64,000 nucleotides of DNA, from assembly GCA_964036665.1 (NCBI GenBank), contig OZ038528.1:1736001-1800000 (forward strand), in the 5' to 3' direction. Positions within the stretch are counted from its first letter, which is position 1. Each line of letters starts with the position of its first letter. The notes beneath the pieces are model-generated. The model did not search any database and was not told the DNA's origin. It saw only the letters and a program-made list of their open reading frames with translations. A program made the position numbers and the translations under genes. Source of the DNA: Gordius sp. MW1. Taxonomy: Eukaryota > Nematomorpha > Gordioida > Gordea > Gordiidae. Below are positions 10,901 to 64,000 of this stretch, piece after piece.

Positions 10901-13900
10901 ACAATAAAATAAGAATAAATTTTAATTTAATCTTTTAAAGAAGCTTGCCGCTTTCTGAAACACCCAATTTATAACTAAAAGTTTATGTTGTTCATTAGAT
11001 CATTTCAGATTTGCCAAACTTGATTAGAATTATATAGCTTTTAAAATTTCCCATTCTTCGAAACAAATTTATGTGCCTAATTTAGCGTTTGCGCTCCACT
11101 GTGTTTTTTGAACCCGTTTTTGTGCGAAATAAAATGCAAGTTAGAAAATTTTATTTGAAAATGAGATATCAATTTTTGCAAGGTTTTGGTGCATGGAGAG
11201 CAGAATGAAATGTACCGTTTGAAAGCGGCCCTGATCCGAGAATATGAAGACGACCCCGTTAATACCATTGAAATATTTAACCCGCGTAATACGCAATGCG
11301 TCGAACTGTACTTCAGGGGCGAGAAACTAGCTAAAGTAAATGACATATACTACTTGTTATATGGTCTCCATTTTAATATTTCAAAATTTCTTAGAGTTTT
11401 TTGTCGTAAGGGTTATATTTCAAAGTTTTCATGCTTTATATTAGTGTTGTAAAAACGGTTGGGTTTTGTTTGGTCGACCTTTTGTTTTACTAGAGGAACG
11501 GTCGCTTCTGGTCTGTTTTTCAAATTTCGACTAAGCCTAGAAGTCGACTAAGAAAAACAGACCAAAAACCTCCTGTCTGTTTATGTTTAGTCGACCAAAC
11601 AAACCCCAGTCGTTTTTACAACATTACAATATATAGGTGAATTTTTGTAATTGTTAGCAGTAGCAAGTTAAAATGATTAAGATTATTTTGCATCAGCTTG
11701 TTTAGTTCACTTAAAATTTCTTCCTAAGGAAAATGCCTCGTCTCGGTATAAACTGTTTTAAAATCTAAGATTTCTCAAATATATTTATCATGTAAATTTG
11801 TAGCAGTGTGTTAGATTCAAACACTGCTCATGTCATATGCTTCATCACCATTTTGAATATACCCATTGTTAAAACGGAAAAAGTGAATTTACCTCCTCAT
11901 TAGTTAAGAAATGATTATTTTATAAATTGGGAAAATGGTAGAATTATTTAAAGGTGATGGACGGTCTATCTAGTCTATGGTTAGATTTAAAAGCAAGCTG
12001 CATTTTATATTGCATATGTATGTTTATTCATATAAATTTTTTGAAAGGTAATGGGATCTCTAGCCTCAACAAAACCAGTTGCATCTCAAAATATATCGGG
12101 TATTTTGGTTAAACGTAACTTCAACTATCATATCATGGACCCCAAAGATTTAACTAGTTAGTTTCCCGATCAATTATACCTTTTGGGTTATCACTTGATA
12201 CCCTATACTTATTTATCTTTTTTCCCAATATCATAATTAAAATTGCAAAAATGTAAAGATCTGACAGTCAAATTAACCATTTATATAGACTGACATTAAA
12301 TTTCTATGAAAAACATAGGATAATGTGTTATTTTTTCATTGTAAGGTTAGTCAAAAAACAAGCTTAATGCATATATAATAAATTTTGATTGCTCGAATAA
12401 TGCATTTGTTTAGATTTTTATTGTATAATTTGAGGATTGTTTAAAACCAAGGATGAGGCGTTCTTTTGGATTTTTTAGTTACTAGTTAAGCCTTACGTCT
12501 AAAATAAATTTACATTTAAAACTCTAATAAAGACTAAAAAAAATTTCGTAAATTTTTCTTGAAACTAAACAACAAAATAAAGATAGATTTTATAGCATTT
12601 AAAAAAATTTTAATTTTGAGGCAAGTCTTAAATTCAATATAGAATATAATTTAAATATCGATGATTTGAAATAAATGGGGAAATTTAAATAATAGGAATG
12701 AAATTTTGTATCTTCCAGTAGTGTTAATATATATTGAAATCATCATTTTAAATTTTAAAAAATTGCTCCATACCGAATTTAGACTACACCGGCTTAGTTT
12801 TGAATACCGTAACCCAGAGGATGACCATACCCTTCACAGGTTCGAGCGCCGACTTGAAGCGTTGCATTTGCGCTATGAGCGCTAAGCGTTATCAAACGCT
12901 CGAACCCCAAAAATCGGCTTCTAGCGGCAATGGGAAATGTCGCTTGCGCGTTTTTGATTGCATTTTTTTGACGCTTGAAAAGGAAGATGATTTAGTCGTT
13001 ATGGAGGTTTTTAAAGTTACCCATTCATTTTTCCCCTTTTTTATTTTTAATTTTTTTAATAGTTTTGAAAAAGTGGTGATATTGATATGTAGTTTTATTG
13101 ATTCCAATAATCATTTGTCAATAAGTTTAATATTTTTTAATAGAATTTTTTACAATTTTAAAATAATTAAATCAATAATATAAAAATGATATTTAAAAAT
13201 AGAATGAGTAAATGTTTATACTTATCCTTCATATATGTACATATACATATATGGCCATGGGCCTAGCCAGGATTGGATTTAGAAGGGGCAATATTGGTTT
13301 AAAGAGGGGCAAAATAATATATTTTTTGAAAGTTTAATCATAATTATATTAAATTGTTTTTAGAAAAGTTGGATTTAGAGGGTGGCAGTCGCCCTTCCCT
13401 GCCACCCCCTGGCTAGGTCAATGTATAAAAAAAGAATTTGATTTTATTTTAATTGTTATTTGATTGCAGTGGGAAGCTAGTCCTATCAGCGATATGTATG
13501 CCGATTCCGTGATAGCTGCATTGTTTAAATACGAATCCGAAGCATTGCCACCCCTTAAAAGTATTCAAGAAAGCTTACTTTTTTTTTAAAAATCGAAAAC
13601 ATATATTTGTACAGAATAAATATGTAAAATGCCATTTTTTAGTGTGATGCCGTGAAATAGTTGGTTTAAAAACTTATAATTCTTATGGACACATAATAAA
13701 TTTTATGTTTCTGTACCAATCTCAAAAGTATCATCCTTTTCTTTATGATTTTGCCAATTGGCTTGGCCCCTTAAGGCGGGACCATCGATTTTTATATAAA
13801 ATGCCTAAATATAACTATTGATAGAAGAATTTCTGTAGTTATGTGCATTCGATTTCCATTTAAAATTTAAATTAGGGGATCATATATGAGAATGAGAAGA

Positions 13901-53700: not shown

Positions 53701-56700
53701 TAGTGGAAAGGCGATAAGTATGTTTATTTTGTTTTACTATTAAGAAAACTGGTATTATAATCGCTGATTATTGTAAAATTTGTTCGGTCTAGACAAACTA
53801 ACGGTGCCATCGCGTCGCCATTGGACTTGGCAATATCAACCGCATCACCGCAACCAACTCTATCAACTATGTTGAACAATGGTTGCCGCTCGAAAAAAAT
53901 ATGGGAACACGGCTCGTGCGAAAACGTAAACAGAACGCACCCTACCGCTAAAAAATCGGCCAAAAACACGGCTACAAGCCAGGCCAAAACTGCCTATGCC
54001 AGTTTTTTGAATGGAATGGTGATTCCATCCATGTTAAGTCAATTTCCAAACGTCCCTACCATGCCATACGCACCCTACTTAATGCCTGGAAATAATCCAT
54101 GGGCCGCTCTGCCAGCTTCAAATCCCTTGATGCCACCACCCCCTTCCTCAGTTTCATTTCCATTTTCCATGCCTAATTACGGACAAAATCCTTATTTGTA
54201 TGCTTCTAACATGGCTCAGCCATATTTCCCATACCCCTACTACCCTCCGTTAGGTTTAATGATGCCACAGCCGATGGAAGCAGAGGGAAGAGCGGATATT
54301 GGAGAAGATGATAATGGAACTGGGATTGCTAGTCAAGATGAAGAAGATGAGGAAGATACAGAAATGGAGAGTAAACTTACGATTAGTGAAGTTGAAAGTA
54401 AAAAAGCATTGAGTGAGGATAATAATAAAACCAACGAAAATTATAATGAATGGATGAAGTCGCTTTACTACAACGCATGCATGTGGCCGAACTCATCAGC
54501 GTCGGGCAGGGATGAAGAAAGTCACTTGAAATCCGATGAAAGCGAAAAAATATTTAATAAGATGGCTAACAAGTCACACACGGCACCCAGTTCTCCCATA
54601 AAAGAGAACCCACTTTCAGCTAATACCCTCAGTGAAAGTTTGGAATATTACGATCCTTATCGCATATACCACCGCTATATGCAAAGTTTGAGTCTCGGAC
54701 ATTCGGAAAATGTCAATGAATCTTGTGACAAAATAAATCAAAAATCGGCAACTACAAAGAACAACGGCTCCTCTTGCAAGGCTGAACCCGATAATGATGA
54801 TTGGTTTCAAGATAATGACAATGTCCAAGAAAGACCATTAGACTTATCCAACTCTGGGGACTCTCCGTCTGATCGAAAGTTGAAGAGAGATCGTTGTATC
54901 CCCGATGCCAAAAGGTCTAAGCTCGATATGACAGAATATGCACAATTTCATATAAAGTAAGCTGCAACTACTTGCCTGATATTATGGCCTATAATATAAT
55001 TTATATAATATATTTCATACGTCAAATAATTTTATTATAGCTTTAATTTTTTTTAAAAATACAGCTTGGATAAATTTAACTCGTCATTGCCATTTCAACG
55101 CAAACTAACTTCCGACTCTGCATCCGATCTAAGTCGGAAACAAACAGACAATAGACTTAAACATCCGGACGAAGCTAACAATAGCCCAGATACTCCATTA
55201 AAGAATCTGTTGGGCAACTCAAGAAATAAACTTAACCCATTACATGATCTGCCTCAAATACCAGACTTGATGGGTGAGAGAGGTGTGCCCAGAACGGACA
55301 GTGCCTTTTTAGGCTTACCAGCTCTAAAAAAATATGGGCAATCTTTGCCTGGATCCCCTGCTAAATCTTCCTACCTTAAGTATCTACAAGCTGAACAAGG
55401 GTTGATTGCCTCCACCCCTGGTTCCTTAATAAACAAGTGAGTTAAGGGACTTTAATATACGACGTTCCCTAGTTTATCACACATTTATGAAAATTTTGAT
55501 TGATTAAGTTGTTCTTTCCATAAATTAAGGTGTCCGACTCCGGGGTGTAATGGATCAGGTCACGTGACAGGCAATTATTCATCACATCGTAGTGCCTCAG
55601 GTTGTCCACTACTGGCGGCTGCATCTGCCTTACGTCGTAAACAAATCTACATGATACCACCTAACGGTATATCATTCACTAAATCGCCCCCAATCAGTTA
55701 CCAAAACCACCAGAACGATAACAACTCGACAGCAGAATCCCTGATTGGAAATTTGTCTTTAAACGCAAACAATCCCGAAAAGAATAATTCAGTTTTGAAT
55801 CGGCACTTCGCCGCTCGATACGATTATTCTATATTGAAAAATTTGCCATACACCGGCTTCTCCACTTTGACCGCTTCATCTACTGACGCTTTAAAGTAAT
55901 GATAATTATTTTCGTAAAATTATCTAGAATTAGATTTAAATTTACTTACGTGACTCAATTATTGTGTGTTGCAGGTGTCCAACGGCTGGTTGCGATGGAT
56001 CAGGTCATGTCACGGGGAAATATTTGAGCCATCGCAGGTTAGACTTTCTGCAATATTTGTGTTTTTCTGCTATTGAGTTCCCGTTATAACATAAACATTT
56101 TATGATTATAGCATATCTGGGTGTCCTTTGGCTAATGGTGGAAGAGTTAGAGGAGGCGTTTTTAGCATATATGACTCATTACTAAAATCAACTCCATCTG
56201 CAGTTCACAATTCGACCTCGGGACCTGCTTTTAAAAGACCACTACCTGAGTTGAACACACGACTGGATTTTAGATCTAAGCCGACAACCCTTAATGGGTC
56301 AAGCGATGGATTTGCCTTATCCGTGCCAACGAAATTTAATGGGCATAATGCCGAAATTAAAAATTCAAACGAAAATTCTAGTTTTAACAGTCCTACAGTA
56401 TCTAAGTCATCGCCCAAAATAAAATGCGTTAATGTCTCAATTCCTGCCTCTTTTTCGCCACCAAACCAATCGGCAAAAGAAAATTGTGGAAGGTAAAATA
56501 ATCGGCCATTTTGAAAATTAAAAATATTAATTTTAAAAAACGTTTAAACCTTGATCTTTTTAGCTCTGCTCCTATGAATTTGGCTATACGCTCTCGTTCG
56601 GACAACTACGTGTCCACCTATCAAAGTGAGTTGATACTTGATGCCTTTTTTAGTACAATAAATTTTATAAACAAACGTTACCTTTTGACCATTATTAATA

Positions 56701-58730: not shown

Positions 58731-59910
58731 AGTGAAGGTTGAGGAAAAAGTTCCTAGAGTTTTTATCAAAGTCTTTTATTTAAAGATAATTTATTGTTAT
58801 AACAATAACTTATTCAATGATATATTCGCCGTTGCTGTTTACGACCTCCTGCCACCTTTTGACCAATTTTTCGATGCCATTACGCCAAAAATCGACCGGT
58901 CTGGTATCGAAGAAGTTGTTGAGTCAGTTTCCCTCATATGGTTCGAGAGAGAGCGGAAAAGATGGTGTGCAAGGTCCGGAGAATATGGCGGATGCTGAAG
59001 GACCTCCCATTCGAGCTCTTGGAGTGCGGCTTTAACGACTTGAGCAACATGGGGCCTTGCGTTGTCGTGAAGGAGTATGGTCTAGCCTTGTCGATGGGGT
59101 TTTTTGAGTCGAATAGCCTCATTCACGTGGTGTAGCTGGGATATATATAGCTCCTTGTTGACCGTGGCATTCCTTTCCAGTTCCAATGCAGAATGCCCTC
59201 CCAGTCCCATTAAACGCAGATCATGGTCTTTTTTGGGTGGAGGTCAGGCTTGACCCTCCGCTTTGGAGTCGCTCCATGAGCCACCCACTCCTTTCTTTGC
59301 TTCAAATTTACGTACAAACACCATTCTCATCACCCGTGACGATTCGGTACAAAAAGCGGTGTTTATGACCGTGGGTTGCTCGATGACAGGCGAGATGTTG
59401 AGAAGCAATTTGAAGGCGATTTTCTTTGTGGCTTTCGTTTAGCTCGTGAGGGATCCAAGCTCCCAATTTTTCGGCAAATCCCATAGAATGAAGATGATTT
59501 AGGTTGGTTTTCTGAACGAACTTTATTATTTCCGCCAATTCACGACTTGTTTGGCGACCGTCCTCTTTCAAAAGTGCTTTGAGACACTCATCGTCGAATT
59601 CCGAGGGTCTTCCGCTACGGGGATTGTCAGCGATGTCAAAATCGCCATTTTTGAACTTTTCGAACCATTTTTGTGCTGTAGACTCAACTATGACACCTTC
59701 TCCGTATATTTTACAAATGTCTCGGGCTGTTTCAGCAGCGTTTTGACCACCATGAAAAGCGAAGAATAGCAGGTGTCGAAAATGTTAATTTTTACCGTTT
59801 GGATACTCCATTTTGACGTCGCAAAAGTAATGAAAAACTTAATTTCTTAAAATCACGATTGGCACAGTTTTGTAGAGAGGAAAAGTTCTACTTAATGAAT
59901 ATTATATAAT
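58731..59910 (-). mobile_element. Dead mariner transposon
   Basis: The transposase frame at 58810-59811 (minus strand) is nearly full length. I could not define the terminal inverted repeats or the TA target duplication with confidence; GGTTGAGGAAAAAGTTCC near 58738 and GAGGAAAAGTTC near 59876 may belong to the ends. Confidence 0.8.
58810..59811 (-). pseudogene. Mariner transposase pseudogene, third catalytic Asp lost
   Basis: Cut-and-paste DDD transposase of about 334 codons (mariners are usually near 345). Minus-strand order: the start MEYPNGKN is followed at once by a stop. Then come RDICKIYGEGV and WFEKFKNGDFDIADNPRSGRP (helix-turn-helix region), TSRELAEI, WIPHELNESHKENRL and IVTGDEN with the first catalytic Asp near 59328. 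[20 protein letters not shown] with the second follows near 59065, then [13 protein letters not shown]. In intact mariners that last motif continues LAPSDYHLF; here the three codons carrying the third Asp are missing. There are also stops after GDENGVCT and frame shifts. It resembles irritans/mellifera-type mariners. Clearly inactive. Confidence 0.9.
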
Positions 59911-62465: not shown

Positions 62466-62805
62466 TTGATATTATACTATAGGATTTAATTGACGAAATG
62501 CATACTATTACATATCTATTTTAAAACATAATTTTTTATAAACCTAACTGTCATTTTTAAAATAACTAAACAGTATTAGCAGTATAGATGAAAATCTTAA
62601 ATTTACCAGTCTGCCACATTCCTCTTAGTTAATAAGCGGTACTATTCGAAAAAAAGATTGAATAGTTAGTTTAAACTAAGATACACACTTTTAGTACATT
62701 ATATTAAAGCATATATTTTTGCAAGATATACAAGATTATTTTTATATTTATAAAAATATTCGAGAAATTTATAATACGTCCACGATTTTTAAATCATATG
62801 TTATT
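62466..62805 (+). promoter_or_regulatory. Presumed shared upstream region of MRPL53 exon 1 and DPAGT1
   Basis: 340 bp of AT-rich DNA between the hAT-type element and the MRPL53 ATG. No TATA box or initiator stands out. Since the DPAGT1 ATG is only 133 bp after the MRPL53 ATG, both probably use a promoter here. This is inference. Confidence 0.4.
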
Positions 62806-62921
62806 ATGGCAGCTACAACGTGGAAGCCTATAGGACGTGCTTTTTCAAAACTTGAATTAAGAAACACCAAACAAATTGAATTTATATTTGATCCTTTTTC
62901 CAAAAATCAAGAAACTATTAG
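62806..62921 (+). CDS. MRPL53: Likely MRPL53 (mitochondrial ribosomal protein L53), exon 1 only
   Basis: Thirty-eight complete codons starting at the ATG in ATTATGGCAGC. The segment RNTKQIEFIFDPFSKNQETIR resembles the start of animal MRPL53 ([21 protein letters not shown] in human), a protein of about 110 residues in the large mitochondrial ribosomal subunit. After ATTAG a GT donor follows at 62922-62923. Without splicing the frame stops at 62944-62946 after 46 codons, far too short for the family, so splicing to a later exon is expected. No second exon is visible before the window ends; the next 1 kb is DPAGT1. Either DPAGT1 is nested in an MRPL53 intron, or this is an orphan first exon. The assignment rests on about 20 residues. 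Confidence 0.65.
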
Positions 62922-62938
62922 GTTTGCTTACACAAGTT

Positions 62939-64000
62939 ATGGATGATATTGCGAGCTATATTATTTCCCTTTTATTGAATTTATTCATATCATACTCTAG
63001 TTATCATTTAGTATCACAATTGATTATATCACTTACTCCTTTGTTTTTAAAAGCTAATATTCTCGGCAAGGATGTGCATAAGAAAGATAGGCCTATATTA
63101 CCTGAGGCTTTGGGGATAGTCTCAGGTGCTGTCTTTATCATCACGATGTTTATATTTATCCCAATATTTTTTTACAAAATATTGCTATATGAGACAACCT
63201 TTCCATATGCTCCATTCCTTGAATTTTTAGCAGGGTTGTTGTCAATATGCTGTATGCTTCTATTAGGTTTTGCAGATGATGTTTTAAATCTTAAATGGAG
63301 ATATAAATTAGTTCTGCCAACAGTAGCATCTCTGCCTTTGTTGATGGTTTATATGATAAATATAAACTCTACAGTGATCATAATTCCTAAACCATTTAAT
63401 CAATTAATTGGCCATAATATTAATATAGGTGGTTTTTATTATCTTTACATGGGAATGTTGGCTGTATTTTGTACAAATTCTATCAACATTTATTCAGGGA
63501 TTAATGGCTTAGAAGTTGGACAGTCACTTGTAATAGCTATGTCAATTCTTATTTTCAATGTAATTGAGTTTTATGGGAAATATTGGAAGAATCATTTATT
63601 TGCTATAACATTTATAATACCTTATATTTTCTCATCTTCAGCCCTTTTTTCCTGTAATATATATCCTGCTAAAGTTTTTGTTGGTGATACATTTTGCTAT
63701 TATTCTGGTATGCTTTTTGCAGTTATTGGAATTTTAGGCCATTTCAGTAAAACTGTACTTTTATTTTTTATCCCACAAATCTTCAATTTTTTATATTCTT
63801 TGCCACAACTATTTCATCTAATCCCATGCCCTAGACATCGCATGCCCCACTATGATGATCAAGAAAATAAGTTGATGCAAAGTTACTCAGAATTTAAAGT
63901 TTCTGATCTTAAACGAATAGGAAAATACATATTAAACATTTTGGCATTCATGAAAATGATAGATCTTCAATATTATACCAAAGATGATGTGCATTATATT
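62939..64000 (+). CDS. DPAGT1: DPAGT1 (ALG7), UDP-GlcNAc:dolichyl-phosphate GlcNAc-1-P transferase, 3' end outside window
   Basis: Multi-pass ER enzyme that makes GlcNAc-PP-dolichol, the first lipid-linked step of N-glycosylation and the target of tunicamycin. The frame is open without introns for 354 codons to the window edge (human is 408 residues, so about 85-90% is present). Visible motifs: PEALGIVSGAVF (55-66), LLGFADDVLNLKWRYKL (109-125, with the Asp pair), GMLAVFCTNSINIYSGINGLE (172-192), PAKVFVGDTFCY (243-254) and IPCPRHRMP (295-303), with many hydrophobic segments between. Start: the first ATG in frame; the frame is open upstream only to 62861. The start overlaps by 8 nt the end of the unspliced MRPL53-like frame. 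Other genes here are intron-rich, so the unbroken frame is notable; it may be an ancestral state or a retrocopy. Confidence 0.95.
   Translation, partial: MDDIASYIISLLLNLFISYSSYHLVSQLIISLTPLFLKANILGKDVHKKDRPILPEALGIVSGAVFIITMFIFIPIFFYKILLYETTFPYAPFLEFLAGLLSICCMLLLGFADDVLNLKWRYKLVLPTVASLPLLMVYMININSTVIIIPKPFNQLIGHNINIGGFYYLYMGMLAVFCTNSINIYSGINGLEVGQSLVIAMSILIFNVIEFYGKYWKNHLFAITFIIPYIFSSSALFSCNIYPAKVFVGDTFCYYSGMLFAVIGILGHFSKTVLLFFIPQIFNFLYSLPQLFHLIPCPRHRMPHYDDQENKLMQSYSEFKVSDLKRIGKYILNILAFMKMIDLQYYTKDDVHYI

Follow-up and report, generated by a model that had tools for sequence, protein, structure and literature searches.

How are two unrelated housekeeping genes expressed when one of them lies whole inside the first intron of the other? 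The question is raised by a locus at the 3' end of a 64,000-nucleotide stretch of hairworm DNA (C2:1736001-1800000, hereafter the window), where a frame for DPAGT1 follows the first coding exon of what we identify as MRPL53. The locus runs past the end of the window, and coordinates above 64000 continue the window numbering into sequence read from C2:1798001-1818000 (Table 1). A first-pass annotation had placed here a 46-codon frame (62806-62946, from the ATG at 62806 to a TGA at 62944-62946), a GT donor at 62922 (62922-62923), a DPAGT1 start at 62939 and an overlap of the two frames in ATGGATGA; all of these hold on recomputation.

Table 1. Predicted features of the MRPL53/DPAGT1 locus, in window numbering
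Feature	Position	Strand	Remarks
11-codon upstream frame	62798..62833	+	weak-context ATG, 8 nt upstream of that of MRPL53; its use would bypass the MRPL53 start
MRPL53 (mL53) coding exon 1	62806..62921	+	38 codons + 2 nt; phase-2 end ...ACT ATT AG/GTTTGC
MRPL53 intron 1	62922-64219 (C2:1798922-1800219)	+	1298 nt, GT...AG; in-window part 62922..64000
ATGGATGA	62939..62946	+	contains the DPAGT1 ATG and the TGA that ends the unspliced MRPL53 frame; 8-nt overlap, different frames
DPAGT1, intronless	62939-64156 (C2:1798939-1800156)	+	405 codons, stop TGA 64154-64156; in-window part 62939..64000
MRPL53 exon 2	64220-64329 (C2:1800220-1800329)	+	beyond window end, 3' of DPAGT1
MRPL53 exon 3	64371-64546 (C2:1800371-1800546)	+	stop TGA 64544-64546; beyond window end

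Joined at their GT-AG borders, the three host exons read in frame into a protein of 133 amino acids, with a second intron of only 41 nt (also GT-AG). This protein matches the mL53 of PDB entry 3j7y, presumably the human one, over residues 11-104 (E = 2.6e-10), and the alignment crosses the exon 1-2 junction without a gap; a one-residue gap occurs later in exon 2. Seven of the eight PDB matches listed are mL53, the eighth being a dioxygenase (E = 1.1). The spliced product also passes the cut-off of the Pfam family PF10780 (MRP_L53; 31.9 bits against 25.3), the profile being matched from 1 to 53 of its 53 positions by residues 28-78, which span the exon 1-2 junction. These two matches bear out the first-pass reading of the first 38 codons as MRPL53 exon 1, and its prediction that the remainder of the gene would be found past DPAGT1 was right as well: exons 2 and 3, which were first spotted by eye in the downstream sequence, lie directly 3' of it. 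Exon 1 by itself matched no Pfam family; in a phmmer search of 177,635 PDB sequences its five distinct matches at E<=10 were all mL53, at weak E-values of 0.59-0.77. On this homology, the frame at 62806 and the exons at 64220 and 64371 are MRPL53.

The openness of the spliced frame is easily obtained by chance, since 26 of 359 AG sites over the following 7.8 kb would likewise extend exon 1 by 36 open codons or more. We therefore dropped it as evidence, and the case for MRPL53 rests on homology. Three of the GT/AG pairs that we tried give more than 100 amino acids (62922/64220, 62922/64226 and 62936/64252); the first is preferred because its alignment to solved mL53 is ungapped at the junction, and the other two were rejected for residues lost there, as judged by eye from unaligned sequences. 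Scanning the whole genome with the MRP_L53 profile gave no match, and 14 control genomes were silent as well. Probably the division of the 53-position profile between exons explains this, since the same profile matches the exons once joined. Nor did a Pfam scan of about 4.5 kb downstream in three frames (and 2.2 kb in one), with stops written as X, return MRPL53, its only hits being SWIM and AT_hook below their cut-offs.

For the guest gene, the 405 codons run uninterrupted, in agreement with the first-pass view of an intronless DPAGT1, and the product matches five solved DPAGT1 sequences, which we take to be human, with E-values from 8e-134 (entry 6fm9) to 2e-132. The best of these aligns over residues 9-405, with 202 identities in 397 aligned residues. 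Two Pfam families are found above their cut-offs: PF00953 (Glycos_transf_4; 91 bits against 27) and PF21383 (the DPAGT1 insertion domain; 37.6 bits against 27.1). The MraY models score far under their cut-offs (25.3 versus 192 and 23.4 versus 450). The segments GFADDVLNL, CTNSINIYSGINGLE, VFVGDTFCY and PCPRHR, presumably the active-site regions of DPAGT1, are conserved or almost so in the alignment to the solved sequences. By homology, then, 62939-64156 is intact DPAGT1 (ALG7, GlcNAc-1-phosphotransferase), which catalyzes the first step of protein N-glycosylation.

DPAGT1 is thus a complete gene nested on the same strand in MRPL53 intron 1, between host exons that are in frame and have canonical splice sites. 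Its coding sequence makes up 1218 of the 1298 nt of the intron (94%): it begins 17 nt inside the intron and ends 63 nt before exon 2, and this last gap closes with ...GTATTTAG. Given the homology scores of both genes, the pairing is far beyond chance.

Could either product come from another locus? A six-frame search of the 211.8-Mb genome (12 contigs) with the MRPL53 protein returned three matches at E<=10, all of them exons of this locus, and the same search with DPAGT1 returned one, this gene. The first-pass annotation had listed a complete MRPL53 elsewhere, along with an unused donor at the end of exon 1, as telling against a coupling of the two genes; no such second MRPL53 was found, 3 of 3 genome-wide matches being the exons described here. 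The search scores the best candidates only, and the single-copy result is accordingly strong, short of absolute. Since no second copy of either gene was found, each product appears to rely on this locus. This also bears on a further explanation, in which MRPL53 is dead or the arrangement an assembly error, DPAGT1 simply using the old MRPL53 promoter. The small size and divergence of mL53 would fit a dead gene, as would a lysine-rich tail that lies outside the part aligned to solved mL53. However, each of the three exons has an open frame and GT-AG borders, the family cut-off is passed and there is no second copy among the matches; as to the assembly, positions 62000-65000 contain no N and belong to a contig of 26.6 Mb. 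We regard this explanation as extremely improbable.

On the 3' side of MRPL53, a transposon-like insertion occupies positions 2917-8398 of C2:1798001-1818000; it has inverted ends (GAGGTGTGCAC/GTGCACACCTC), and the identical 10 bases GGCCACAGTA flank it on both sides. Inspection by eye shows, inside it, a fragment resembling the C-terminus of a hAT transposase and inverted arrays of repeats of about 120 nt. Within the window, a remnant of a Mos1-like mariner transposase is found at 59311-59784 on the minus strand (HTH_48, 70.9 bits). Of 14 long frames, 7 were scanned, and in these the nearest family match that is not a transposon is a C2HC zinc finger, presumably of the Myt1 type, about 7 kb upstream of MRPL53/DPAGT1 (55504-55896, plus strand; zf-C2HC, 56.8 bits). 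Further away, an open frame at 12752-13180 (plus strand) matches the C-terminal domain of CPSF73, the 3'-end-processing endonuclease, at 24.6 bits for a cut-off of 24.5.

Two other contigs of the assembly were sampled. Ten kilobases of the 1.37-Mb contig C9 (C9:600001-610000) consist mostly of a degenerate short tandem repeat, open on both strands in frames of up to 855 codons, which looks like a satellite rather than genes. The mitochondrial contig (C12, 14,798 bp) carries at least 42 pairs of inverted repeats (arms of at least 16 nt, within 200 nt of each other), some of them overlapping; 28 of the 38 pairs listed are 100% complementary, with arms of up to 108 nt. By position, many fall in frames read as nad1, atp6, nad5 and nad6. 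Such repeats, long, perfect and located within mitochondrial genes, have been described in Nematomorpha, with lesser cases elsewhere, for instance in a gastrotrich (PMC6649704). With names assigned by eye, the gene order is nad1 and nad2 on one strand, and cox1-cox2-atp6-cox3-nad3-nad4L-nad4-nad5 and nad6-cytb on the other. Compared over the protein genes, rRNA genes being left out, this order fits the hairworm mitochondrial order (PMC10380579). Cox1 was the one gene searched by sequence, and its best matches give no phylum. Repeats and gene order together point to a hairworm, which we take to be a gordioid. Before cox1 (L015:3690-4030) stands a tandem array that translates as repeated TITLLLPYYYL, with inverted repeats at both ends.

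Is the nesting an old arrangement? In Drosophila, mRpL53 (CG30481) maps to 2R 50C16 (PMC2246290), and CG5287 has been described as a putative GlcNAc-1 phosphotransferase (PMC2698153). In CG5287, the k10105 insertion is lethal with Df(2L)BSC245, in a study where deletions were picked to encompass the insertion sites (PMC4978919). From these papers, rather than from fly sequence, the two genes seem to be on separate chromosome arms (2R versus 2L). With the fly genes apparently apart, the nesting at least is not one that Drosophila has. When bacterial and archaeal contigs were scanned with DPAGT1, one archaeal relative was found, with 29% identity; viral contigs gave no match. As for how DPAGT1 came to be where it is, insertion as a retrocopy is a guess that would suit its lack of introns; no poly(A) remnant was seen in the 63-nt gap that follows it.

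What mode of expression does this anatomy allow? The layout of the locus strongly suggests a shared promoter for two products, the mRNA part of which we infer. DPAGT1 lies whole inside MRPL53 intron 1, so that both genes seem tied to one promoter and to one either-or RNA choice. Our favored reading, to which we give a probability of about 0.65, is a single transcription unit with two unrelated products, splicing leading to MRPL53, and retention of the intron, or polyadenylation within it, leading to DPAGT1. A single promoter upstream of 62806 would produce a common pre-mRNA. Where intron 1 is spliced out, DPAGT1 would be discarded and exons 1-2-3 would encode mL53, a protein of the mitochondrial ribosome. 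Where the intron is retained, or cleavage and polyadenylation take place within it at the AATAAA at 64158, the result would be a DPAGT1 mRNA with MRPL53 exon 1 as its leader. By sequence, this mRNA could not yield full MRPL53, since the unspliced MRPL53 frame is cut to 46 codons; conversely, full MRPL53 requires that the DPAGT1 cistron be spliced away, which makes the full-length products mutually exclusive on any one mRNA. Each mature mRNA could thus provide a single full-length protein, the DPAGT1 mRNA adding at most a truncated peptide of 46 residues.

Several elements bear on such a choice. The AATAAA at 64158-64163, within intron 1 and with a single base between it and the DPAGT1 stop, may signal polyadenylation of a DPAGT1-only mRNA, but its weight is reduced by the chance of meeting this hexamer here, about 5% per 30 nt and 12% per 63 nt. 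For MRPL53, the same hexamer occurs 60 nt past the stop, at 64606, and also at 64537. The donor at 62922 was considered as a specially weak site, and this idea found no support: its 6 of 11 matches to the U1 consensus equal those of the intron 2 donor and are attained by 21% of the GT dinucleotides in 82 kb, an ordinary level. A folded leader was also looked for, and nothing notable was found (z = 0.27; 118 of 200 shuffles fold as well).

How would ribosomes come to DPAGT1 on the unspliced RNA? They may reach its AUG by leaky scanning, or restart after the 46-codon frame, which ends there. No AUG occurs between the MRPL53 start at 62806 and the DPAGT1 start at 62939, and for a ribosome that skips the first AUG the next one is that of DPAGT1. 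The DPAGT1 start has a G at both -3 and +4. The MRPL53 AUG, however, has favorable surroundings, A at -3 and G at +4, which argues against leaky scanning. A special scarcity of AUG in exon 1 found no support: the lack of AUG is expected half the time from the protein sequence (P about 0.50 under synonymous redraws), and 13% of the 131-nt stretches of the window are equally free of AUG. Leaky scanning or reinitiation is possible for DPAGT1, and not statistically notable.

A further layer may be imagined in the 11-codon frame at 62798, which overlaps the MRPL53 start, so that ribosomes translating it would be carried past the MRPL53 ATG. DPAGT1 translation might then be gated by upstream frames, as in stress-response mRNAs, the frame at 62798 bypassing the MRPL53 start and the unspliced MRPL53 frame, which overlaps the DPAGT1 start, acting as an inhibitor. 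We think this very unlikely; if it were true, splicing and stress-sensitive scanning would together set the balance of mitochondrial translation and N-glycosylation from one promoter. That the mitoribosome and N-glycosylation pathways are metabolically coupled is likewise a guess.

The available promoter space matters for an alternative with two promoters, in which DPAGT1 transcripts start inside MRPL53 exon 1 (62807-62938); the genes would then share DNA, their mRNAs would have separate 5' ends and MRPL53 would be spliced independently. Such transcripts would avoid the MRPL53 AUG entirely and meet no further AUG before 62939, and there is a mammalian parallel, one paper reportedly describing, by its title, VAChT promoters within the first ChAT intron. 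On the other hand, the space open to a DPAGT1 promoter is limited to MRPL53 exon 1, what precedes it and the 17 nt up to the DPAGT1 start, and the promoter would here have to fit in or before a coding exon of 116 nt. The sole TATAAA/TATATA match in 62650-62810 is at 62749, upstream of both starts, a weak argument either way since such matches are common in AT-rich DNA. We consider two promoters unlikely.

Another alternative keeps a spliced DPAGT1 mRNA. At 62935-62936, 2 nt ahead of the DPAGT1 ATG, stands an acceptor-like AG that could be joined to a donor within exon 1 (62820 or 62837) or receive a spliced leader in trans, which would remove most of the MRPL53 frame from the leader. The joins 62820->62937 (from the ATG at 62798) and 62837->62937 (from the ATG at 62806) even leave DPAGT1 in frame, with an extension of 8 or 11 residues, but such joins easily arise by chance, and the stretch preceding the AG is short and, by eye, not strongly pyrimidine-rich. 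A genome search for SL1 (RF00198) gave no match with 50 of 63,028 first-look candidates scored, a result shared by 14 of 14 control genomes, and we know of no report of a hairworm spliced leader. Trans-splicing, as raised in the first-pass annotation, finds no support in these data. This route to DPAGT1 as a whole seems to us quite doubtful, and either-or processing of one pre-mRNA remains the reading we prefer.

Under that reading, two housekeeping genes, each found once, are locked in one locus where, by anatomy, each mature RNA would give one full-length product. Should RNA data confirm it, the locus would offer a natural experiment on the supply of two unrelated, probably essential proteins from one promoter by either-or processing. 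There is a consequence for annotation too, since gene prediction software might overlook MRPL53 or merge it with DPAGT1. Many genes widely conserved in animals are reportedly missing from hairworms, and some of those thought lost could be hidden by nesting of this kind. No report of a pairing of MRPL53 with DPAGT1 (mRpL53 with Alg7/CG5287 in flies) turned up among the open-licence papers searched.

Are there precedents for this anatomy? The closest in form is the cholinergic locus (ChAT/VAChT; unc-17/cha-1 in nematodes). The VAChT frame is a single exon within the first ChAT intron, an organization reportedly retained across nematode, Drosophila and mammals (PMC3053374), and in ticks an 82-bp exon 1 common to ChAT and VAChT was confirmed by RT-PCR (PMC7524744). 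The guest lies whole in the first host intron, as DPAGT1 does in MRPL53. The cholinergic partners belong to one pathway, the synthesis and loading of acetylcholine, whereas MRPL53 and DPAGT1 are unrelated. The exon shared in the cholinergic locus is non-coding; MRPL53 exon 1, in contrast, is coding sequence of the host, and 17 nt of intron precede a guest whose frame overlaps the host frame by 8 nt. The hairworm locus would add a case to the same-strand nested loci of this type.

Insect Su(var)3-9 and eIF2gamma offer a second comparison: unrelated genes with a common promoter and a common first coding part, one of which possibly moved into an intron of the other, and of which no transcript isoform carries the characteristic domains of both (PMC4528330). 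There, the 80 N-terminal residues are common to both proteins and read in the same frame. Unlike this, MRPL53 exon 1 is in a different frame from DPAGT1 and contributes no part of it. The same source gives for dicistronic loci a stop-to-start distance that ranges from overlapping to more than 1 kb, and from -34 to 319 nt where transcripts are only polycistronic (PMC4528330). Such loci have two cistrons in a row, as does unspliced MRPL53/DPAGT1 RNA, but in the latter the upstream cistron is a truncated MRPL53 only. By its anatomy, and as known here from DNA, the MRPL53/DPAGT1 locus resembles ChAT/VAChT and eIF2gamma/Su(var)3-9; what is new is the gene pair, the unusually tight fit, and a coding exon of the host that would serve as leader to a guest read in another frame.
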